Assembly: GCA_017477465.1 (NCBI GenBank)
Contig: JAFUVU010000040.1
Span: 1-32,268 of the forward strand
Direction: 5' to 3'
DNA: 32,268 nucleotides
DNA from: Bacteroidales bacterium
Lineage (GTDB): Bacteria > Bacteroidota > Bacteroidia > Bacteroidales > UBA932
This document shows positions 274-32,231 of this stretch, one piece after another. The position numbers and the translations under genes were made by a program. Under the pieces are notes generated by a model. The model did no database searches. It saw only the letters and a program-made list of their open reading frames with translations, and was not told the origin of the DNA. The stretch's first letter is position 1, and every line of letters begins with the position of its first letter.

Positions 274-1263
274 ATGAAAGTAGCAGTAGTAGGTGCGACA
301 GGCTTGGTTGGCCAGAAAATGTTGCAAGTTTTGCAGGAGAGGCAGTTTCCGGTGACGGAATTGCTTCCCGTAGCATCGGCCCGTTCATGGGGAAAGAAGG
401 TGCAGTTCCAAGGCAGGCAGTGGACAGTAATAAGTGCCGACGAGGCCATAGCCCAAAAACCCGTCCTGGCAATTTTCAGCGCCGGCGGCAGCGTATCGGC
501 CCAGCTGGCCCCGCGCTTTGCGGCCATTGGTTGTTACGTAGTGGACAACTCTTCCTATTGGCGCATGGATCCCTCCGTCCCCCTGGTAGTCCCGGAAATC
601 AATGCCGATGTCCTGACGAAAGCCGACCACATCATCGCCAACCCCAACTGCTCGACAATACAGATGGTGTTGCCGCTCGCCCCTCTGCATCGCGAATTTG
701 GCATAAAGCGCATTGTGGTAAGCACTTATCAGAGCGTGACGGGCGCCGGACAAAAGGGAATCGAACAATTGGAAGCGGAACGTGCAGGCGGCTCAGGAAC
801 CAAGTTTCCGCACAGAATCGACATGAACGTCCTCCCGCACATCGATTCCTTCCTTCCCGACGGCTACACCAAAGAGGAGATGAAGATGGTCAACGAAACC
901 CGCAAAATCCTGAGGGATAACACTATAGCGGTATCGGCAACCACTGTGCGCGTGCCGGTTGAAGGCGGCCATTCGGAAAGCGTGAACATAGAGTTCCGCA
1001 AGCCCTACGACCTTGCCAAAGTCCGTAGCCTGATGGCCGATATGCCCGGCGTAGTAATCCAGGACGACCCTGCCAACAATCTCTACCCCATGCCGATTAC
1101 GGCCTGGGACAAAGACGAAGTGTTTGTGGGCCGTATCCGCCGTGACCCTTCAGTGGGAAACGGCCTCAACCTCTGGTGCGTAAGCGACAACATCCGCAAA
1201 GGCGCCGCCACAAATGCAGTGCAGATAGCCCAGGTCCTGTTGGAAAAAGGCTGGTTATCATAA
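274..1263 (+). CDS. asd: Aspartate-semialdehyde dehydrogenase
   Basis: NADPH-dependent reduction of aspartyl-4-phosphate to aspartate-4-semialdehyde, the branch point to lysine/DAP, threonine and methionine, in the cytosol. The N-terminus has the Rossmann motif VVGATGLVGQ (residues 5-14). The catalytic cysteine is C126 in NPNCSTIQ, and the substrate-binding histidine is near H233 in EGGHSESV. The 329-residue length is normal for the bacterial enzyme. The ATG at 274 starts exactly at the conserved MKVAVVGATG and sits 19 nt behind a -7 box. Downstream are a hairpin-repeat pair, an M20 deacylase and dapB, which fits an aspartate-family cluster. Nothing is missing from the active site that can be seen by eye. 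Confidence 0.97.
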   Translation: MKVAVVGATGLVGQKMLQVLQERQFPVTELLPVASARSWGKKVQFQGRQWTVISADEAIAQKPVLAIFSAGGSVSAQLAPRFAAIGCYVVDNSSYWRMDPSVPLVVPEINADVLTKADHIIANPNCSTIQMVLPLAPLHREFGIKRIVVSTYQSVTGAGQKGIEQLEAERAGGSGTKFPHRIDMNVLPHIDSFLPDGYTKEEMKMVNETRKILRDNTIAVSATTVRVPVEGGHSESVNIEFRKPYDLAKVRSLMADMPGVVIQDDPANNLYPMPITAWDKDEVFVGRIRRDPSVGNGLNLWCVSDNIRKGAATNAVQIAQVLLEKGWLS

Positions 1264-1369: not shown

Positions 1370-2548
1370 ATGATGAATTGGGAATTGTTTAAAGCTATGC
1401 TGTCCATTGATTCCACTTCCGGAAAGGAGCGGGAAATGGCGCTATGGCTGTACGACAGGCTGGAAGCTCCTGAAAAAGAACTGATGGAGGTTGGTGACGG
1501 CACCCTGAACCTTTTCCTTCGCTGGGGCACGCCGAAAGTGGTTTTCTGTACCCACATGGACACGGTTCCGCCTTACATCGCCCCTGTTTTTCCGGAGGAT
1601 ATCACCTCCGGAGGAACTCCGTTCGCTTCGCTCTCTCCGGCCCCTCCCACCGGCCTGCAGCCGGCGGGCCCCTCCCCCTACCCATGTGCGGGGGTGCACA
1701 TGTCCTCCGAAGGTGACATCCTCCGGAAAATTGAAGGCCGTGGAAGCTGTGATGCGAAAGGGCAGATTTTTTCCATGTACACAGCATGTAAAGAACTTGA
1801 AGCCCAAGGCTTTACTGATTTTGGCCTTCTGATTCTTGCAGGGGAGGAAACCGGCTCGTGGGGCGCAAAGGCCTTTTCCAAAACAGGCTTCGAGGCGCCG
1901 TTTCTCATAGTCGGCGAACCTACGGAGAACAAGATGGTATCGGCCTCCAAGGGGACCAAGTCCTATACACTCACTTTCCGCGGCAAGGCTTTCCATTCCG
2001 GTTACCCGCAGTATGGCGTAAGTGCCGTGGATTTGTTCAACGAGTTTTACAACAAACTGAAAGCCAAGGATTTCGGCACAGATCCAGAACTTGGCGAAAC
2101 CACTTGGAACATAGGCCTTCTCCACAGTGACAATCCGCAGAACATCCTGTCTCCTCAGCTGAGTTGCCGCCTGTATTTCCGTACAACTTTCCTGTCGCAC
2201 CAGGCCGTGCAGGACTGGATGGAAGCCGTGGGGATGGAAGGCTTTTCTGGAGCATTTGCCCGGACAGGGTCGCAAAGCGACGCGGAAGAAAACGCAGCTG
2301 CACTCACTGTAACCGCTAACGGAACGGGCGACGCTCCGGCACATTATGTTACATTGCCAGGATTCGAATCGGCCCCCGTGGCGTTCGGCAGCGATGCTCC
2401 ACACCTTAGCGGCTTCGGCCACAAGATTATTTGCGGGCCGGGTACCATCCGCGTCTCGCACAGGGATGACGAGCATATTCTTGCAAGCGACCTGGAGACG
2501 GCTGTAGAGCAGTACGTGAGAATGTACCGTTGTCTAACAAATGCCTGA
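1370..2548 (+). CDS. M20-family metallo-deacylase (ArgE/DapE-like), with in-frame palindromic insertion
   Basis: Zinc-dependent amidohydrolase of the M20 peptidase/ArgE/DapE superfamily, 392 residues from this start. Metal and catalytic motifs are visible: THMDTVPP (H62, D64), GRGSCDAKGQ (bridging Asp), AGEETGSWG (catalytic and metal Glu pair), and a C-terminal GPGTIRVSHRDDEH metal His. The dimerisation-domain motif region KGTKSYTLTFRGKAFHSGYP is present. A TTG 39 nt upstream is in frame but lies inside a hairpin repeat, so ATG 1370 (or 1373) is the better start. Residues from about 74 to 120 are a Pro/Ser/Gly-rich block that interrupts the family fold and coincides with an inverted-repeat element (1588-1730). 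Its place between asd and dapB suggests a role in lysine/DAP or arginine synthesis, such as succinyl-DAP desuccinylase or N-acyl-ornithine deacylase. The exact substrate cannot be read from sequence. Confidence 0.85.
   Translation: MMNWELFKAMLSIDSTSGKEREMALWLYDRLEAPEKELMEVGDGTLNLFLRWGTPKVVFCTHMDTVPPYIAPVFPEDITSGGTPFASLSPAPPTGLQPAGPSPYPCAGVHMSSEGDILRKIEGRGSCDAKGQIFSMYTACKELEAQGFTDFGLLILAGEETGSWGAKAFSKTGFEAPFLIVGEPTENKMVSASKGTKSYTLTFRGKAFHSGYPQYGVSAVDLFNEFYNKLKAKDFGTDPELGETTWNIGLLHSDNPQNILSPQLSCRLYFRTTFLSHQAVQDWMEAVGMEGFSGAFARTGSQSDAEENAAALTVTANGTGDAPAHYVTLPGFESAPVAFGSDAPHLSGFGHKIICGPGTIRVSHRDDEHILASDLETAVEQYVRMYRCLTNA
1588..1730. repeat. Palindromic (MITE-like) element inserted in frame within the M20 gene
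   Basis: Arms 1588-1615 and 1703-1730 are 28-bp inverted repeats matching at 26 of 28 positions. Each arm can itself fold: CCGGAGG-N6-CCTCCGG at 1592-1611, and a matching imperfect hairpin at about 1706-1725. A third hairpin, CATGTGC-N6-GCACATG, lies at 1683-1702. The element has no stop codon in the host frame and encodes a Pro/Ser/Gly-rich segment between the metal-binding THMDTVPP and GRGSCD motifs, where M20 proteins normally have only a short linker. It resembles the protein-coding palindromic elements known from other bacteria, but no second copy was found in this window. Confidence 0.75.
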
Positions 2549-4145: not shown

Positions 4146-6659
4146 ATGGACGCAAGGCTGGAGGCAAAACTGGGATTCGACAAGGTGCGGGCCGCTGTTC
4201 AGGCCCGCTGTTCCACCGAATATGCCGCCACGCGCGTTGCGGAGGAAGAGTTCTGCACAGAGGACGATCAGATCCGCCGCCGCCTGCTTCTGACAGACGA
4301 GATGCGCCTTATCCTGATGTTCGAGGAAAACTTCCCCACGGCAGGATACATTGACGCCATTCCTTTCCTGGAACCTATCGGCAAGCATGCTTCCATTGAC
4401 GTCTTGTCTTTGGGAAAGCTTCGCACTTTGCTTGAGACTCTGCGCAAGACGCTGCATTTCTTCCACACTGTGAAGGAGGGCATCTACCCCAATCTGCAGC
4501 ATCTTTCCGCAGGGATAAGCGCCCCGGCCGAGGTTATCAGCCGCATAGATTCCATCCTCGACCGCCACGGAGAAATCAAAGACACAGCCTCCGACGAGTT
4601 ATACAAAATCCGCCGCAGCATCCGTGACAAGGAACTCAGCGTTTCCCGCCGCATGAACGCCATCCTTAGGCAGGCGCAGCAAGATGGCCTGGTAGAGGCC
4701 GATGCAGCCGTAAGCATCCGCGACGGAAAAATGCTGATTCCGGTGACATCGGCAAAGAAGAGGCAGTTCCAGGGATTCGTGTACGACGAGTCGGCCACCG
4801 GAAAGACCACCTTCATGGAACCGGCCGAGGTTGTAGCCCTGCAGAACGAAATTTCCGAGCTGCATTTTGCCGAGACAAGGGAAATTGCCCGCATACTGTA
4901 CGAGTTCGCGGAATTCCTGCGCCCTTGGGTGCCGGAGCTTATCGCCGGCGCCACTTTCATAGGGGAGCTGGACTTCAATATGGCTAAGGCCCACGTATCG
5001 CTGGATTACATTGCAGGCATGCCTGTCCTTTCGGCCGATGGTTCGCTGAGCCTTAGAAAAGCCCGCCATCCGCTGCTGGAAAAAAGCCTCAGGAAAGACG
5101 GAAAAGCAATTGTCCCTCTGACGGTTACGCTTACTCCCGAGAAGCACATCCTTCTGATTTCCGGCCCCAATGCCGGCGGAAAGAGCGTGTGCCTCAAAAC
5201 TGTCGGCCTGCTGCAGTACATGTTCCAGTGGGGCATGCTTATTCCAACCTCCGAGACATCGGAACTGCCTGTCTTTGACAGGATTATGGTGTCGATAGGG
5301 GACGACCAGTCCCTGGAAAACGACCTTTCCACCTACAGCGGCTTCCTGTCGGACATGAAGGCGATGCTGGAAGTGGCCGACGGACGCACCCTCGTGCTGA
5401 TAGACGAGTTTGGCTCAGGAACAGAGCCGGCGGCCGGCGGTGCCATAGCGGAAGCTATTCTGCATCAATTGGATACAAAAGGCGCTTATGGCGTCATAAC
5501 CACCCATTATACTAATCTCAAGCTTTATGCATCGGCCTCCGATACCGGCGTGGTAAACGGCGCTATGCAGTTCGACGTGGCAACCGTGGCTCCGCTCTTC
5601 AAGCTGGAAATCGGCCTGCCGGGCTCTTCCTTCGCATTTGAGCTGGCCCGCAAGATGGGCCTTCCCGAAGCCCTGGTCCACGATGCCGAGCAGCGTGCCG
5701 GCGAGCAGTTCGTGGGCATCGAACGCAATCTTAGAAAAATTGCCCGCAGCCGCCGTCAGCTGGATGAAAAGCTGACCCGTATCCGCGCCACCGACAAGAC
5801 CCTGGAAGGCCTCACGGACCGCTACGAGAAGGAATTGGAGGACATCCGCCAGATGCGCAGCCGCATCCTTGACGAGGCCCACGAAGAAGCGGAGAAGATT
5901 GTCCGCGGGGCAAATCGGCAGGTGGAAAGCACTATCCGCACCATCCGCGAGTCCCAGGCCGAAAAGCAGCAGACCCAGCAGGCGAGGGCGGAACTGCAGG
6001 ACTTCCTAGGCGCCCTGGTCGAAAACCGCGGCAAGAGGGATGCCTACATAGACAAAAAGCTGCAGACGGTCAAGGAGCGCAAGGAAAGGGAGAAGGTGCG
6101 CAAAGTAAGGCGCGAAGGCGGGGAAACCGTCCGTCAGATGCAGGAGCAGGAGGCCGAAGCCAGGAAACTGGCCGCATTCCGCAGCGCCCCGCTGAAGGTG
6201 GGCGAAAAAGTGCGGGTGAAGGAAAACGGCATGGTGGGCGAAGTGTCCAAGGTAAGCACCAAGGCTGTGAGCGTGATCATCGGCAACATTACCACAAAAC
6301 TGCCTCTGGACCGCGTGGAACGCATAACTGCCAATGAGTACAAGGCCGTGGCCAAGGCACCGTCGGCACGTCCGCGCCAGGTTGTCGATGCCGGAATCAG
6401 CGAGAGAAAAGCGGCCTTCAAGCTGGAACTCGACGTCCGCGGCGAAAGGGTGGGCGAGGCCATTGAACATGTAATGAAATATATTGACGATGCAATCATG
6501 CTTGGCGTTCCGGCGGTGCGAATTTTGCATGGTAAAGGAACGGGCGCTTTGCGTGAGGAAATACAGAAATATCTGCGCACCGTCCCCGGCGTCAGCTCAG
6601 CGGCCGACGAACACATCCAATTCGGCGGTTCGGGCGTGACGGTAGTAAAATTAGACTAG
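4146..6659 (+). CDS. mutS2: MutS2-family ATPase/endonuclease with Smr domain
   Basis: MutS2 proteins act on branched DNA or stalled ribosomes rather than in mismatch repair. This 837-residue protein has the full architecture: an N-terminal core/clamp region (about 1-320), Walker A GPNAGGKS (340-347), Walker B LVLIDEFGSGTEP (about 417-429), a long charged coiled-coil segment (about 510-650), and a KOW-like region VGEKVRVKENGMVGEV. It ends in a C-terminal Smr domain with LDVRG (about 762) and HGKGTG (about 795). The usual Smr LDLRG is LDVRG here, a mild change. The ATG abuts the cdaA stop with no spacer, so translational coupling is likely. A yraN-family gene follows 12 bp later. Confidence 0.96.
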   Translation: MDARLEAKLGFDKVRAAVQARCSTEYAATRVAEEEFCTEDDQIRRRLLLTDEMRLILMFEENFPTAGYIDAIPFLEPIGKHASIDVLSLGKLRTLLETLRKTLHFFHTVKEGIYPNLQHLSAGISAPAEVISRIDSILDRHGEIKDTASDELYKIRRSIRDKELSVSRRMNAILRQAQQDGLVEADAAVSIRDGKMLIPVTSAKKRQFQGFVYDESATGKTTFMEPAEVVALQNEISELHFAETREIARILYEFAEFLRPWVPELIAGATFIGELDFNMAKAHVSLDYIAGMPVLSADGSLSLRKARHPLLEKSLRKDGKAIVPLTVTLTPEKHILLISGPNAGGKSVCLKTVGLLQYMFQWGMLIPTSETSELPVFDRIMVSIGDDQSLENDLSTYSGFLSDMKAMLEVADGRTLVLIDEFGSGTEPAAGGAIAEAILHQLDTKGAYGVITTHYTNLKLYASASDTGVVNGAMQFDVATVAPLFKLEIGLPGSSFAFELARKMGLPEALVHDAEQRAGEQFVGIERNLRKIARSRRQLDEKLTRIRATDKTLEGLTDRYEKELEDIRQMRSRILDEAHEEAEKIVRGANRQVESTIRTIRESQAEKQQTQQARAELQDFLGALVENRGKRDAYIDKKLQTVKERKEREKVRKVRREGGETVRQMQEQEAEARKLAAFRSAPLKVGEKVRVKENGMVGEVSKVSTKAVSVIIGNITTKLPLDRVERITANEYKAVAKAPSARPRQVVDAGISERKAAFKLELDVRGERVGEAIEHVMKYIDDAIMLGVPAVRILHGKGTGALREEIQKYLRTVPGVSSAADEHIQFGGSGVTVVKLD

Positions 6660-6671
6660 AACCTATAACCC

Positions 6672-7046
6672 ATGAATGTTCTCAGAACCAGTAAAATAGG
6701 GGTATTGGGAGAACAAATGGCCTGCGATTTTCTCCTGTCCCGCGGGCATCAGATTCTGGACCGCAACTGGCGGGCCGGACATCTGGAACTGGATATAGTG
6801 ACAGAAGCCCCGGACGGTCTTCATTTCGTGGAAGTGAAAGCCCGCACCGCTCCCGTAACAACCACTGTGCTGGACCAGGTGAACCCTGTTAAACAAAAAC
6901 GCATTTGCGCAGCTGCGCTTCAATATCTCAATAAAAAACATCTATGCGGCGGGGAAGTCTTCTTCGACATAGTTTCAGTGCTTTTCAACGGCACCGAAAC
7001 CGTAGTCAGATATTTCCCCCAGGCCTGGATTCCCATGTATGTCTGA
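6672..7046 (+). CDS. YraN family protein (UPF0102), endonuclease-like fold
   Basis: Small 124-residue protein of the YraN/UPF0102 family, which has a restriction-endonuclease-like fold and an unsettled role. Visible family motifs are GEQMACDFLLSRGHQILDRNWR near the N-terminus and the nuclease-type core E-x(n)-D-IV-x(n)-FVEVKAR (GHLELDIV then HFVEVKARTA). The conserved tail motif is FFDIVSVLF. Length and motif order are normal. It follows mutS2 with a 12-bp gap, and its end overlaps the next gene by 8 bp, so the three are one transcription unit. Whether it cuts DNA is not shown by sequence alone. Confidence 0.9.
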   Translation: MNVLRTSKIGVLGEQMACDFLLSRGHQILDRNWRAGHLELDIVTEAPDGLHFVEVKARTAPVTTTVLDQVNPVKQKRICAAALQYLNKKHLCGGEVFFDIVSVLFNGTETVVRYFPQAWIPMYV

Positions 7047-7821
7047 TATGAACCCTACGCATAAATACTGTGTTATAATGGCCGACGGAACCGGTTCTCC
7101 CAGCCAGCTCCGCTATACCTACGACCGCTTCTGCCAAGTAGTGCCGGAAGAAAACATCCTGGTAGTCACGCTGGCCCGTTTCGCTTCCGAGGCACGGCGA
7201 GTACTCCCCGGCCTTGCGCCGCAGAACCTCCTTCTGGAACCATCGGCCCGGAAAACGGCCCCCTGCATGGCCCTGGCCGCTTATACCCTGCTTACAAGAG
7301 ACCCCGAGGCCGTGATTGTGGCCACTCCCTGGGACTTGGTAATAAGGGACGAAGCCCTTTTTGCCCGCACTCTGGCCGACGCCTTCGATTACGTAGAGGA
7401 AAACGACGTGCTCATGACCCTTGGCATCGTCCCCAAGACTCCCGATGTGAACTTTGGCTATATCCAGGTTAAGGAAGGCCGTAACGCCCATCTTATGGCC
7501 GGCCCTCTGCAGGTGAAAACCTTCACCGAAAAGCCTCCGCTGGAACTGGCCGAGGTATTCGTCCGCACCGGCGAATTCTTCTGGAACAGCGGTATCTTCA
7601 TCTGGAAGGCCGCCACCATAGTAGCGGAAATGGAAAAATACATCCCCGACGTCACCGAAATGTTCAAAGGCTGGCAGCAGCACATATCGGAGCCCGCCTT
7701 CATAGAAAGGGCATACGCGGAATGCCCCAAGGTATCCCTGGACTACGGCGTAATGGAGCACACCTCCCGCGCATGGCTCTATCCCGCCCGCTTCGGCTGG
7801 GCCGACATAGACCGCCTGTAG
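7039..7821 (+). CDS. Degenerate mannose-1-phosphate guanylyltransferase-like protein
   Basis: Homologous to GDP-mannose pyrophosphorylase: the middle is clear (YDRFCQVVPEENILVVT, LLLEPSARKTAPCMALAAY, KTFTEKPPLELA, GEFFWNSGIFIWKA). However, the N-terminal nucleotide-binding signature (GGxGxR...PKQ) is replaced by MADGTGSPSQLRYTYDRF, a deletion of roughly 20 residues. The PSDH metal/substrate motif reads TPWDLV. The protein also stops at GWADIDRL, where relatives continue past GWSDLGTW for several dozen residues, leaving 260 residues against about 350. The stop codon sits 20 bp before a hairpin-repeat array. It is probably catalytically inactive, either a decaying gene or a repurposed fold. It overlaps the YraN-family gene by 8 bp (ATG 7039; an internal ATG at 7048 is possible). 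Confidence 0.75.
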   Translation: MSDMNPTHKYCVIMADGTGSPSQLRYTYDRFCQVVPEENILVVTLARFASEARRVLPGLAPQNLLLEPSARKTAPCMALAAYTLLTRDPEAVIVATPWDLVIRDEALFARTLADAFDYVEENDVLMTLGIVPKTPDVNFGYIQVKEGRNAHLMAGPLQVKTFTEKPPLELAEVFVRTGEFFWNSGIFIWKAATIVAEMEKYIPDVTEMFKGWQQHISEPAFIERAYAECPKVSLDYGVMEHTSRAWLYPARFGWADIDRL

Positions 7822-7840
7822 TCATCCGAATAGCCTTCTC

Positions 7841-8024
7841 AGGTGCGCTTTTGGCGTTTTCCGCACCTCACAGCGGTACGAACAGCCTTCTCAGGTGCGT
7901 TTTGAGCCATTTCCGCACCTCGCAGCGGTACGAAGAGCCTTCTCAGGTGCGTTTTGAGCCATTTCCGCACCTCACAGCGGTACGAACAGCCTTCTCGGGT
8001 GCGTTTTGAGCCATTTCCGCACCT
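7841..8024. repeat. Hairpin repeat array 2 (four 28-bp units, 52-bp period)
   Basis: Units at 7841-7868, 7893-7920, 7945-7972 and 7997-8024 are each (A/G)GGTGCG-N14-CGCACCT with starts exactly 52 bp apart. Units 2-4 have the same centre, TTTTGAGCCATTTC; unit 1 differs. The three 24-nt spacers are near-identical: the first and third are identical and the second differs at two bases. A partial spacer copy (CGAATAGCCTTCTC) precedes unit 1. The array fills the gap between two convergent genes. It shares core and period with 1269-1348. The 52-bp unit is not a multiple of three, and no protein reading is plausible. Confidence 0.92.
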
Positions 8025-8035
8025 CGCGGGACCGT

Positions 8036-10099
8036 TTATCGCAGAATGTCGTTGAGGATACTGGAGGCGGCGTCGCGTGCGCCTTCGCCGGGGCCTTGAA
8101 TCACAAGTGGATACGGATGGAAGGCGCTGCGCACTATGATGGCGTTCTCCGTGCCTTTCAGATGATATGCGGGATGAACCGGCGGTACATTCCTAAGGCC
8201 GATGCAGGCGCGGTAACCGCCGTCGGCCTTTTCAAGGCTGGCTACAAAACGGCGTCTGAAGCCTTGGACGGCCGATTCGCGCTCCTCTCTGGCAAGAAGC
8301 CCTTCACAGGCTTCGAGGCCACGATAGAAATCTTCAAGCGAGCCGCCAAGTATCTCTTTGGGTACGATAGGCTGAATCTCCACGTCTTCTTCTTCGAGGC
8401 GTACGCCCGCTTCACGCGCAAGTATCAGAAGCTTTCTGAGGACGTCCTTTCCGCCGAGGTCCAGGCGAGGGTCGGCTTCCGTGAGACCGGCTTCCTGAGC
8501 ACGGCGTACCAAAGTTGCAAACGTCTCACCGCCAGGATGATAATCGCTCAGAATCTGGTTGAGGGTGCAGGAAACCACAGCCTCAAGGGAGAGGATTTCG
8601 TCGCAGCTGTTTGCGCCTCTTGCGATGGAATCCAGAATAGGCAGGGCGCTGCCGACGGTTGTCTCGTAACGAAGGGCCGCCCCGTTTTCCCTTGCCGATG
8701 CATGCAGCCCGGCCCAGTCGCAGTAAGGAATGGCGAAGGAGCGCCTGTTTGACGAAACCACATCGATCCCCGCGGCGAAAAGCTTGGGATAACTTTGCCA
8801 GAGAGTTTCACTGTCGGTGCAATCGACAAAGACTGAGCCTTTTGGAGCAGATGCGCAGACGGCATCAATGTAATCGCCCGTTGTGTCCGGGCTGGAAGGA
8901 TTGCCGCCTAAATCTATGCTATACAGGCGCGAATTGGCCTTCCCGACTATTCTGAGGCGTTTTCCTGTACGCTCTGCAATGCCTGCACGCGCGGCGTCTA
9001 TCACATCATACAGCGCATGGGCAACTTGCCCGTCACCGGCTATGAAAAGATTCACATCCTGCACCGGGAGCTCCTGGAAAAAAGCCCTGTGCAGCGCATT
9101 CAGGGCTGCGACTTCAACGGCTGGCCTGACGGTGAGCAGGATGTTTCCATCCTCTTCCCAAACCCTCAGTGGGCCGATTCCAGCCCCGCTCAGGGCCTTT
9201 GCGACAGCATCGGCATTTTTGCCGCCAACGAGGCAGATTTCCACGACGCTTCCCTTAGGCAGAGAAGCCAGCCCCACCGGCCCGGATTCTTTAGTCCTTG
9301 CCGATATTACCGTTTTCCCTCCTTCCGGGGCAAAAGTATTCCGTATTTCGATTGCTATTCCGGCCTCCATTGCTGGAGCGACAGTGGGTGCGTAAAGCAC
9401 TTTGGCGCCATGCCGGGCCATTTTGAGGGCCGAGTCGTAACTCATTTCCGGGATGGTCCTGGCCTTGGAAACCTGCTTGGGGTTTGCCGTCATGATTCCG
9501 GGAACGTCGGTCCAGATTTGCAGGCTGGCGGCATTCACGGCGGCGGCATAAAGGGCAGCGCTGTAGTCCGAACCTCCACGGCCCAGTGTGGAGATTGCAC
9601 CCTCGGAATCCCTGCAGATAAAGCCCGGGGCTACGAAGACAGATGCATCGGCAGAACATACTGCCGTGGCTATTTTCCCGAGGGTAAGCGCCTCATTATC
9701 TTTTACTACCAGTTCGCGGGAATCCAGCCAGAGGGTGCTGTAGCCCTCCGTCTTGAGCTTGGCTTCGAGGATGGTGGTGGAGAGAATTTCGCCGTAAGTG
9801 ACCTGCTCATCGGCCGGAGCTTGGCGCAGTTCGCGGAAAATGGCGTCCACCTTGTCCTGCACCCACTTTCTCTCTACGCCGGTGAAAAGGCGGCGTACAA
9901 TGTCCCTGTGGCGCTGCTCCACGTCGGAGAGAAGGGCCTGGTCGCCGCTCAGGAGCGCATCTGTGCAGCCGCTGATGGCCGAACTTATCAATATCACCTG
10001 CCTGCCCCCTGCGGCTTCTTTTTCCACAAGGTCCAGCACACGTGACATGTTGGTGGCGGAAGCAACTGAAGACCCGCCGAATTTGAGAACACTGTACAT
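8036..10099 (-). CDS. thrA: Bifunctional aspartokinase / homoserine dehydrogenase (shortened regulatory region)
   Basis: Aspartokinase phosphorylates aspartate; the fused homoserine dehydrogenase reduces aspartate semialdehyde to homoserine. From this start the protein has 687 residues, against about 810-820 for usual ThrA/MetL. The aspartokinase domain (about 1-290) has KFGGSS at its N-terminus and TLGRGGSDYSAA. The homoserine dehydrogenase domain (about 365-687) has YETTVGSALPILDSI and TEADPRLDLGGKDVLRKLLIL. The stretch between them is only about 75 residues, so most of the tandem ACT allosteric region is missing. The NAD(P) loop reads GDGQVA, lacking the usual last Gly. A longer ORF start exists at 10144, but MYSVLKFGGSS begins 6 nt behind a -7 box, which fixes the start at 10099. 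Confidence 0.9.
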   Translation of the reverse strand: MYSVLKFGGSSVASATNMSRVLDLVEKEAAGGRQVILISSAISGCTDALLSGDQALLSDVEQRHRDIVRRLFTGVERKWVQDKVDAIFRELRQAPADEQVTYGEILSTTILEAKLKTEGYSTLWLDSRELVVKDNEALTLGKIATAVCSADASVFVAPGFICRDSEGAISTLGRGGSDYSAALYAAAVNAASLQIWTDVPGIMTANPKQVSKARTIPEMSYDSALKMARHGAKVLYAPTVAPAMEAGIAIEIRNTFAPEGGKTVISARTKESGPVGLASLPKGSVVEICLVGGKNADAVAKALSGAGIGPLRVWEEDGNILLTVRPAVEVAALNALHRAFFQELPVQDVNLFIAGDGQVAHALYDVIDAARAGIAERTGKRLRIVGKANSRLYSIDLGGNPSSPDTTGDYIDAVCASAPKGSVFVDCTDSETLWQSYPKLFAAGIDVVSSNRRSFAIPYCDWAGLHASARENGAALRYETTVGSALPILDSIARGANSCDEILSLEAVVSCTLNQILSDYHPGGETFATLVRRAQEAGLTEADPRLDLGGKDVLRKLLILAREAGVRLEEEDVEIQPIVPKEILGGSLEDFYRGLEACEGLLAREERESAVQGFRRRFVASLEKADGGYRACIGLRNVPPVHPAYHLKGTENAIIVRSAFHPYPLVIQGPGEGARDAASSILNDILR

Positions 10100-10105
10100 A
10101 GATTG

Positions 10106-10113
10106 CAAAGATA
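10106..10113 (-). promoter_or_regulatory. -7 box for thrA, near-leaderless start
   Basis: On the minus strand this reads TATCTTTG, with the thrA ATG (10099) 6 nt downstream. The spacing is the same as for cdaA. It rules out the upstream in-frame start at 10144, which would precede the promoter. The 10100-10190 gap carries no other feature I can support. Confidence 0.65.
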
Positions 10114-10190
10114 GTGAAAAAACACTTACCTCCGACTTTCTCAAAAACAGAAAGGCTGCTTCCGCTCACCGTGCCATAAAAAGAAGGCGG

Positions 10191-29833: not shown

Positions 29834-30457
29834 ATGCCTGGTTTAATTGGAAAGAAAGTCGGAATGATTTCCGTCTTCGGTGCCGACGGGAAGAATATCC
29901 CGTGCACCGTCATTGAGGCTGGTCCGTGTGTTGTCACGCAGGTTCGCACTGTGGAAACCGATGGTTACGCAGCAATTCAGCTTGCCTATGACGAAAAGAA
30001 AGAGAAACGCACCAGCGCGGCCCTGAAAGGCCATTTCGAAAAGGCTGGAACTACTCCCAAGAAGAAACTTGTGGAATTCCCCGCAGACTTCGCAGGAGAG
30101 CTCAAGCTCGGAGACACCCTCACAGTGGCAGACGTCTTCACAGATGTCAAGTTCATCGATGTGGTGGGTACTTCTAAAGGTAAGGGTTTCCAAGGCGTAG
30201 TCAAACGCCACGGATTCGCAGGCGTAGGCGGTGAGACCCACGGTCAGCACAACCGTCTCCGTCACCCCGGTTCCATGGGTGCATCCTCCTGGCCTTCCCG
30301 CGTTTTCCCGGGAATGCGCATGGCAGGTCACATGGGCAACGAGCGTGTGAAAGTATTCAACCTCGAGGTCCTCAAACTCATCCCTGAGAACAACCTCATC
30401 GTCGTAAAAGGTTCCGTACCCGGAGCCAAAGGTTCTTACTTAATCCTGGAGGACTAA
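29834..30457 (+). CDS. rplC: 50S ribosomal protein L3
   Basis: Primary 23S rRNA-binding protein near the peptidyl-transferase centre, 207 residues. The start [19 protein letters not shown] is the family start. The central signature is [17 protein letters not shown], then [41 protein letters not shown], and the tail is [17 protein letters not shown]. It is first in the operon and directly follows a consensus promoter; rpsJ, its usual upstream partner, is absent. rplD begins 3 bp after the stop. Confidence 0.98.
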
Positions 30458-30460
30458 ACT

Positions 30461-31087
30461 ATGGAATTAGCAGTTTACAAGATTGACGGATCCGAATCCG
30501 GAAAGAAAGTGGTCCTTGACGAAAAGGTCTTCGGCGTAGAGCCCAACGATCACGTCATCTACCTCGACGTCCTTCAGTATCTGGCCGCACAGCGTCAGGG
30601 CACAGCCAGGACAAAAGACCGCAGCGAAGTTGCCTACAGCACCAAGAAGCTCGGCCGTCAGAAAGGCGGCGGCGGTGCACGTCACGGCTCCCTTAAGGCC
30701 GGTATCTTCGTAGGTGGCGGCAATGTTTTCGGCCCCAAACCGCGCGACTATCGTTTCAAACTCAATAAGAAAGTAAAGCAGCTCGCACGCGTGAGCGCCC
30801 TTTCTTACAAGGCTCAGGAAAATAAGATCGTCATTGTGGAGCCCTTCGCAATGGACGCTCCCAAGACCAAAGAGTTCAAGAGCATCCTCGCCAACATCAA
30901 AGCCGGCGACCGCAAAGTCCTCTTTGTGCTCCCCGAGAACTCCAACAATATTTTCCTGTCATCCCGTAACCTCACCAATGTTCAGGTGATCACCGTTGAC
31001 GAGATCAATACCTACGCTATCATGAATGCCCATTCTCTGGTGCTTGTGGACGGCGTGCAGGACATCCTCGCAGCAAGAGTAAAGTAA
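30461..31087 (+). CDS. rplD: 50S ribosomal protein L4
   Basis: Exit-tunnel protein, and in several bacteria the autoregulator of this operon; 208 residues. Family motifs are the N-terminal strand VYKIDGSESGKKVVLDEKVFG, the tunnel loop GTARTKDRSEVAYSTKKLGRQKGGGGARHGS, and RDYRFKLNKKVKQLARVSALS. Length and layout are normal. It has a 3-bp gap after rplC and 13 bp before rplW. Confidence 0.98.
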   Translation: MELAVYKIDGSESGKKVVLDEKVFGVEPNDHVIYLDVLQYLAAQRQGTARTKDRSEVAYSTKKLGRQKGGGGARHGSLKAGIFVGGGNVFGPKPRDYRFKLNKKVKQLARVSALSYKAQENKIVIVEPFAMDAPKTKEFKSILANIKAGDRKVLFVLPENSNNIFLSSRNLTNVQVITVDEINTYAIMNAHSLVLVDGVQDILAARVK

Positions 31088-31100
31088 AGGAGAAAGAACA

Positions 31101-31391
31101 ATGGGTATTTTAATTAAGCCAATCGTAACCGAAAAAATGACGGCTGAGGGCGAAAAGCTCGGTCGTTACGGTTTCATCGTGGACCGCAAGGCCAACAAGC
31201 TCCAGATCAAAGCTGCCGTAGAGCAGATGTACGGCGTTTCAGTAGCAGACGTCAACACTCTCAACTATCACGGCAAGCGCAAACAGCGCTACACCAAGAG
31301 CGGCCTCCTGCGCGGTCGTATGAATCACTTCAAGAAGGCATACGTCACACTTGCAGGTGAAGACAAGATTGATTTCTACGCAAACATCTAA
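31101..31391 (+). CDS. rplW: 50S ribosomal protein L23
   Basis: Small subunit-surface protein at the exit tunnel, docking site for trigger factor and SRP; 96 residues. Motifs are KPIVTEKMTAEGEKLGRYGF, VDRKANKLQIKAAVEQMYGVSV and the C-terminal KKAYVTLAGEDKIDFY. An SD-like AAGGAGAAAG lies just upstream of the ATG, unlike most genes in this window. Normal length for Bacteroidota. Confidence 0.97.
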   Translation: MGILIKPIVTEKMTAEGEKLGRYGFIVDRKANKLQIKAAVEQMYGVSVADVNTLNYHGKRKQRYTKSGLLRGRMNHFKKAYVTLAGEDKIDFYANI

Positions 31392-31406
31392 GAAGGAGAA
31401 TAAACT

Positions 31407-32231
31407 ATGGCAATCAAAAAGTACAAGCCGGTAACTCCCGGTCAGCGCAACAAAGCTATCAGCTCCTTCGATGAAATCACAGCGAAGAAGCCCTACAAGA
31501 AGCTCCTTGCTCCCCTCAAATCCACCGGTGGCCGCAACAACACTGGTCAGATGACCGTGCGCTACCGTGGCGGCGGACACAAGAGAATGTACCGTCTCGT
31601 AGATTTCGTCCGCAACCGCGACGAATTCAAAGCAACTGTGCTCACAATAGAGTACGATCCCAACCGCAGCGCCCGCATCGCCCTCATCCAGTACGAGGAC
31701 GGCCTCAAGAGCTACATCATCGCCCCTAACGGCCTCAAGGTCGGTCAGGTGGTTGAAAGCGGCCCCAAGGCTTCCCCGGATATGGGTAACTGCCTCCCGC
31801 TCGCCAACATTCCCGTTGGTACCCTCGTTCACGCTATCGAGCTCCGTCCCGGTCAGGGCGCCGCAATGGCCCGTTCCGCCGGTACATACGCCCAGCTCGC
31901 AGCACGTGAAGGCAACTACGCCATCCTCCGTCTCCCTTCGGGCGAGACCCGCATGGTTCCCGTTACCTGCCGCGCAACTGTCGGCACAGTGTCCAACCCG
32001 GATCATAATCTGGAATCCGACGGTAAAGCCGGCCGCACCCGTCATCAGGGTCGCCGCCCGCACAACCGCGGTGTTGTCATGAACCCGCACGATCACCCGA
32101 TGGGTGGTGGTGAAGGCCGCGCCTCCGGCGGACACCCTCGTTCCCGCAAGGGTCTGCCTGCAAAGGGCTACAAGACCCGCAACCCGAAGGCCGTCTCCAA
32201 CAAGTTCATCATTGAAAGACGTAAGAAATAA
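31407..32231 (+). CDS. rplB: 50S ribosomal protein L2
   Basis: Universal rRNA-binding protein needed for subunit association and peptidyl-transferase structure; 274 residues. It has [36 protein letters not shown], the central [27 protein letters not shown], and the C-terminal [26 protein letters not shown] with the conserved histidine of the active-centre loop. AAGGAGAATA precedes the ATG as an SD-like site. It has a 15-bp gap after rplW. Confidence 0.98.

Follow-up and report, generated by a model that had tools for sequence, protein, structure and literature searches.

What element produces the strictly spaced hairpin repeats that occupy the gap between two convergent genes at positions 7841–8024 of this Bacteroidales contig, and is it confined to that gap? 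The window (the whole stretch of 32,268 nucleotides that was analysed) contains the following features at this locus.

7039–7821, plus strand: nucleotidyltransferase (mannose-1-phosphate guanylyltransferase-like), upstream neighbour of the array
7827–8025, minus strand (the linker orientation of the family consensus): whole tandem array, 3.8 x 52 bp, Tandem Repeats Finder
7841–7868, unstranded: core unit 1, 28 bp, 7-bp arms perfect, pattern scan of the window
7893–7920, unstranded: core unit 2, perfect arms, pattern scan of the window
7945–7972, unstranded: core unit 3, perfect arms, pattern scan of the window
7997–8024, unstranded: core unit 4, one arm mismatch, starting with G instead of A (GGGTGCG), pattern scan
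8036–10144, minus strand: fused aspartate kinase/homoserine dehydrogenase, convergent neighbour of the array

The AGGTGCG-N14-CGCACCT units recurred with a period of exactly 52 bp, separated by nearly identical 24-nt linkers. Tandem Repeats Finder, which was independent of the pattern scan, returned the same array (7827–8025, period 52, 3.8 copies, 93% matches). The strict period and near-identical spacers put forward in the original prediction were confirmed. The perfect 7-bp inverted repeat that it assigned to all four 28-bp units was present in three, the fourth having one mismatch. The flanking genes are convergent metabolic genes, as described, but the cores span only 184 bp of the 214-bp intergenic gap (7822–8035), i.e., most of it and not the whole. 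With up to three mismatches allowed, seven core matches were found in the window (six of them the units described here) against 2.14 expected, and none of 100 shuffles reached seven. The window has no predicted tRNA. Its right end (29834–32231) carries ribosomal protein L3- and L2-like genes, preceded by TonB receptor/SusD-like, GH9 and hybrid sensor kinase genes. The SusC/SusD-type genes indicate Bacteroidota, and the genus may be a Cryptobacteroides-like member of Bacteroidales.

The claim that an identical core and the same 52-bp period recur in the window with another spacer also held, in the form of two perfect units at 1269 and 1321 whose linker differs from that of the 7841 array.

274–1263, plus strand: aspartate-semialdehyde dehydrogenase (asd), neighbour of the second array
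1269–1296, unstranded: core unit of the second array, perfect, pattern scan
1321–1348, unstranded: core unit of the second array, perfect, 52 bp further on, pattern scan
1373–2548, plus strand: M20 family peptidase, neighbour of the second array, start inferred from the starts in relatives G005 and G003

The mechanical ORF start of the M20 peptidase, 1331, falls inside the second array, hence the use of the start at 1373 suggested by the relatives. Between the asd stop and this start lie 109 bp that hold the two units. In G005, whose asd is 89% identical, asd and M20 overlap by 4 bases, and in G003 (asd 77% identical) they are 11 bases apart, with no units between them in either genome. Gain of the units at the asd/M20 junction in the lineage of our genome would be the simpler reading of this comparison. 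No exact insertion boundary or target-site duplication was established at the junction, as G005 and G003 are too distant for either to be read. An equivalent empty-site comparison at the homoserine dehydrogenase (thrA) end was abandoned, the nucleotidyltransferase gene not being located beside thrA in the stretches from G005 or G003. Two other repeats were seen at these genes in relatives: the M20 gene of G005 has a different long palindrome near its start, and in the Asd of G009 (L263, C39) a different repeat, rich in Gly/Ala, forms an in-frame insert of ~80 residues.

A whole-genome search for copies and their spacing, set beforehand as the refutation test for the original prediction, revealed many further copies with non-random spacing, and hence more than a local duplication. 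Across the source genome (G000; 2.42 Mb in 73 contigs, 82.5% complete), the AGGTGCG dyad with at most one mismatch occurred at 45 sites, compared with one for a reversed control pattern. Once weaker units were added, on the criterion that they stood 52 or 104 bp (±2) away from a good one, the list comprised 49 cores in 18 groups, 16 of which had at least two units; four groups at contig ends (C9, C18, C67 and C72) share sequences in pairs and may represent two broken arrays, in which case there are 16 places and some units were possibly counted twice. Neighbouring units were 52 bp apart in all but one of 31 steps (53 bp). The original proposal of a specific element family was right in this respect: the units are dispersed and their period is fixed.

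Oriented by its linker, the unit reads ...CNGCG-AGGTGCG-centre-CGCACCT-GAGAGGC... in this genome. Among 38 aligned units, the 14-nt centre has a G+C-rich middle with A/T-only positions on either side, which were T/T in 20 units, A/A in 11 and mixed in 7. Ten distinct A/A centres matched the T/T type better when inverted (mean 11.9 of 14 positions) than when compared directly (4.8). Complementing alone gave 11.1, and inversion was strictly better than complement for five of the ten; inversion of the centre is only suggested by these values. Manual inspection of open frames and Pfam matches placed the arrays in convergent gaps (the 7841 array), in codirectional ones (asd/M20, and the pair Na/Pi transporter and YhfC) and in divergent ones (mnmA-like/lplA-like, and PGA_cap/esterase). 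A clear position inside a gene was seen for none of the 18 groups, and no common gene function was seen near the sites. By eye, a second repeat resembling TGTCATTTCGACCGGAGCGAAG...GAGAAATCTC adjoins 5 of the 18 groups (L026, second group; L028, just right of 5080; L029; L032, both arrays; L085).

We then asked how far the family extends. In 24 further genus members and 16 genomes from elsewhere in the order, the AGGTGCG dyad with at most one mismatch stayed near its control (0–2 per genome). A covariance model built from the 38 units gave weaker matches in 28 of the 199 other genus genomes, and DNA from some of these displayed the same architecture with other arms and a 51–52 bp period. A generalised 26-bp core, which undercounts as it finds nothing in the array-rich genome G009, was detected in 48 of the 199 (150 matches versus 11 for the reversed control), although 25 of these 48 had a single match that may be due to chance. 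It was richest in G142 (44 matches), followed by G157 (15). G009 itself was met through a protein search and had repeat arrays in most of its 13 stretches. Outside the genus (196 genomes), the generalised core gave 40 matches in 34 genomes, none above three, against 22 for the control, i.e., 1.8 times and close to control. The absence of a generalised-core match from 151 of the 200 genus genomes suggests that the family is not essential. Collection scans for a doubled core at 52-bp spacing, whose coverage may leave out G000, returned 11 genome records and one viral record, all judged unrelated chance or G+C-rich repeats. The palindromic family was seen in one genus only, and no description of such arrays in Bacteroidales was found in the open-access literature searched.

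The spacing was maintained across these genomes. When 46 arrays were rescanned without a period filter, 77 of the 99 core spacings between 35 and 70 bp were 52 bp and 15 were 51 bp, the remainder being 53 bp (2) or other values (5); 14 spacings outside this range were left out, and the arrays had been met via core, repeat or protein matches, with spans that were partly tandem-repeat calls, which favours regular arrays. Four of the arrays gave no core and two a single one, all six from G009.

Sister species also carry arrays in frame within coding sequence. Array-free orthologues were compared for three proteins: a PBP1C-like protein of G142 with seven 17-residue units, compared with PBP1C of relatives; MnmE, with arrays in three species (G127, G011 and G004), likewise compared with relatives; and LplA of G009, for which the G000 protein has no array. 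Further in-frame arrays were located in a MATE transporter (G142), a polyferredoxin (G164), an OMP-like protein (G204) and a FolC-like ligase (G188 and G184, at the same place, where three units at 52 bp together keep the frame), and a 51-bp repeat whose core is weaker occurs in an HrpB helicase of G135. PBP1C and FolC are names that we chose by interpretation; Pfam gives BiPBP_C and Mur ligase domains for these proteins. Upstream of residue 237, the G142 pbpC frame aligns to its relatives mostly through stop codons, and this copy may be frameshifted or misassembled; the G009 LplA frame stops before the C-terminal domain. Both may thus be damaged genes. At the position of the G142 array, the PBP1C of G005 contains a different insert that is unrelated to it. 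Several period-51 arrays, in G009 and other genomes, had no gene assignment, which bears on whether period 51 is a purely coding feature. For one of the period-51 arrays, first read as tRNA-adjacent, ARAGORN identified no tRNA.

Arm sequences differed by genome: GGGGCA in G142, AAGTGCA in G157 and G156, GGGTGCA in G127, GTGTGCA in G004 and GGGGTGCA in G009. Inside G000, none of the seven arm pairs displayed a two-sided change. Across 63 units from 11 genomes, arm pairs 1, 2, 4 and 7 occurred as at least two Watson-Crick types between species (paired in 50, 58, 54 and 51 of the 63 units, respectively) and pairs 3, 5 and 6 were almost constant; these units were collected by stepping along the period from an anchor, and as several anchors came from a symmetric pattern or model fixing G3, G5 and C6, both the paired share and the constancy of pairs 3, 5 and 6 are biased upward. 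The MnmE set (G127, G011 and G004) was chosen by orthology and avoids this bias. Each of the three genes has two units 52 bp apart, and five of the six units are fully symmetric. Both units of G004 MnmE carry GTGTGCA/TGCACAC, the same arms as two units at another G004 locus (C9). In G127 and G011 the arms are GGGTGCA, with TGCACCC opposite in three of the four units. Linkers and centres at the MnmE site differ between the three genomes. Such a coordinated change, in which both units adopt the dialect of their genome on both arms, suggests either that the arms are matched to a trans-acting factor or that gene conversion acts over very short tracts.

The reading we favour, and consider fairly probable, is that the 7841 array belongs to a non-autonomous, REP/RPE-like family of palindromes that has been tandemly amplified and whose arms are read by a trans-acting factor. 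The unit consists of a 28-bp dyad core (7-nt arm, A/T tract, G+C centre, A/T tract, 7-nt arm) and a linker, 51–52 bp in total. Units would reach new sites through an insertion process that recognises the dyad, either as dimer-bound double-stranded DNA or as a single-strand hairpin, and arrays would then grow from the inserted units by tandem duplication. The factor, presumably symmetric and sequence-specific, with a specificity that differs between species, would hold the arms to a genome-wide dialect as centres and linkers drift; the period is equivalent to about five helical turns. For the most part the element would be tolerated as selfish-like DNA, retained in gaps and protein loops. Several observations count against this explanation: arm covariation is absent inside G000, clearly coding arrays come from sister species, with two of the genes possibly damaged, and the generalised core is lacking from most genus genomes and also exceeds its control outside the genus. 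Where arrays were duplicated recently, their regular period would need no cause beyond tandem duplication. No mobilising enzyme or binding protein for the 52-bp units was found.

A further-reaching account can be offered only tentatively. It takes the repeats for a previously undescribed DNA-level system of one genus, made of five-turn-phased dyads whose arms coevolve with a putative symmetric factor into species dialects, inherited coding sites included. The same factor would both spread the units and dictate the 51–52 bp period, with the in-frame 17-residue repeats as a by-product.

Alternatively, the units could form a functional protein-binding array, occupied by a dimeric regulator or a nucleoid/partition protein on one face of the helix with five-turn spacing, the sites being kept for their function. 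The period of about five turns, the covariation of the symmetric arms between species, the fixed placing of A/T-only positions in either strand and a dialect common to the loci of one genome would all be expected of such sites, and the symmetry and phasing of the units are compatible with an operator array. We nevertheless regard this as unlikely, given that match numbers range from ~45 to none between species of the genus (the patterns miss some dialects) and that the sites occupy convergent, codirectional and divergent gaps as well as, in sister species, gene interiors, with no shared gene function nearby. Among the kinds of element listed in the original prediction, a REP-like mobile unit or a protein-binding array comes closest.

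Mobilisation as a REP/BIME family by a RAYT (Y1 transposase) was the association that the original prediction had proposed to look for. The family does consist of short palindromes at dispersed sites, REPs too can be clustered or intragenic (PMC3733652), and Y1_Tnp matches were present in 31 of the 41 genomes searched, including 18 of 25 in the genus (G000 included, with one). Yet six RAYT-like loci from six genomes contained no exact AGGTGCG dyad and no 51–52 bp tandem, with isolated loose core matches only, and at two of them (G000 and G010) a different type of hairpin lies at both gene ends. Within 8 nt of the 49 cores of G000, GTAG never occurred, CTAC occurred once, CGTC five times and GACG once, i.e., there was no consistent tag, and the arrays run head-to-tail, unlike head-head dimers. 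RAYT as the mover of the 52-bp units, judged on six loci and a genome that is 82.5% complete, is not supported, and we consider this explanation improbable. The RAYT-like Y1_Tnp protein of G000 (339 aa; L085:4258–5277, C17) is flanked on both sides by hairpins resembling CCCCTATGC...GCATAGGGG (4169–4200 and 5300–5331), L090 is similar, and a stretch similar to the TGTCATTTCGACCGGAGCGAAG...GAGAAATCTC repeat is located downstream of the RAYT-like gene. In relatives, a genome can have as many as six Y1_Tnp matches, all weak. Padloc, applied to the RAYT-like protein and to one protein of the window, identified nothing.

An RNA-level role, with tandem hairpins ending or protecting transcripts, fares slightly worse and is in our view quite improbable. 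Six single units folded as hairpins of 6–12 pairs, and the 7841 array does lie between convergent genes. A three-unit stretch, however, folded into nested long-range pairs instead of three hairpins, the whole window had no Rfam match at gathering scores, two-sided arm changes were absent inside G000, and divergent and coding sites exist. The bidirectional terminator suggested originally can be set aside, as no T run follows the units on either strand by reading and codirectional and divergent sites occur; the same lack of a T run led us to reject an intrinsic terminator. A terminator scan that found none allows loops of 3–8 only, so a 14-nt loop is undetectable by it. Lastly, an ordinary minisatellite that does not move and is copied by slippage would account for the higher core identity within than between arrays (0.89 versus 0.78), but is scarcely credible for a single dialect dispersed over 16 or more places of the genome and for a junction that is empty in two relatives.

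The favoured reading, a mobile palindromic family, places the units beside several known systems. In PMC10969869 and PMC2996958, RPE are described as dispersed palindromic repeats of Rickettsia that occupy intergenic sites and also sit in frame within housekeeping genes of unrelated function. In-frame insertion with array-free orthologues is a feature shared with RPE, in sister species only (LplA, PBP1C and MnmE). The RPE described there are ~150 bp. The units of this Bacteroidota family measure 51–52 bp, form arrays that are strictly head-to-tail and differ in arm dialect from species to species, and no clearly coding copy was seen in G000. As with REP/BIME, which are dispersed, clustered, sometimes intragenic imperfect palindromes of 20–40 bp, there are many copies (49) of a short (28-bp) core. 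In contrast to the GTAG and CGTC superfamilies, GTAG tags are absent and CGTC is near few cores; the 14-nt centre with its two A/T tracts, the fixed period and the lack of a RAYT partner at the six loci are further differences. Clusters of REPs coding for 43–82 residues are reported from Thauera and R. conorii in PMC3733652, and coding clusters as such are therefore not new. PARCEL likewise comprises tandem palindromic repeats in coding sequence; according to PMC2996958, they encode an amphipathic domain of 25 residues (75 nt), and their host genes have no assigned function. Here the unit is 51–52 bp, many arrays are intergenic and others lie inside known housekeeping genes. A 28-bp dyad repeat with regular spacing also recalls CRISPR, a candidate that was rejected since the linkers repeat within an array, the cores vary and arrays occur at at least 16 places, in place of constant repeats with unique spacers. 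The units may also resemble AAGTGCGGT, a DNA uptake sequence of the Pasteurellaceae type, a class marked by a short motif in very many single, scattered copies; this candidate was set aside.

Judged from sequence, then, the family is of one kind with RPE and REP, to which it would add a period of about five turns, species dialects and a mixture of intergenic and coding arrays. To our knowledge, it is not settled how short palindromic repeats move without a RAYT partner. The MnmE coding site is available for comparison in three species. As one of them has another dialect, it becomes directly testable whether the arms follow a trans-acting factor. The in-frame arrays represent a natural route for tandem peptide repeats into housekeeping proteins.
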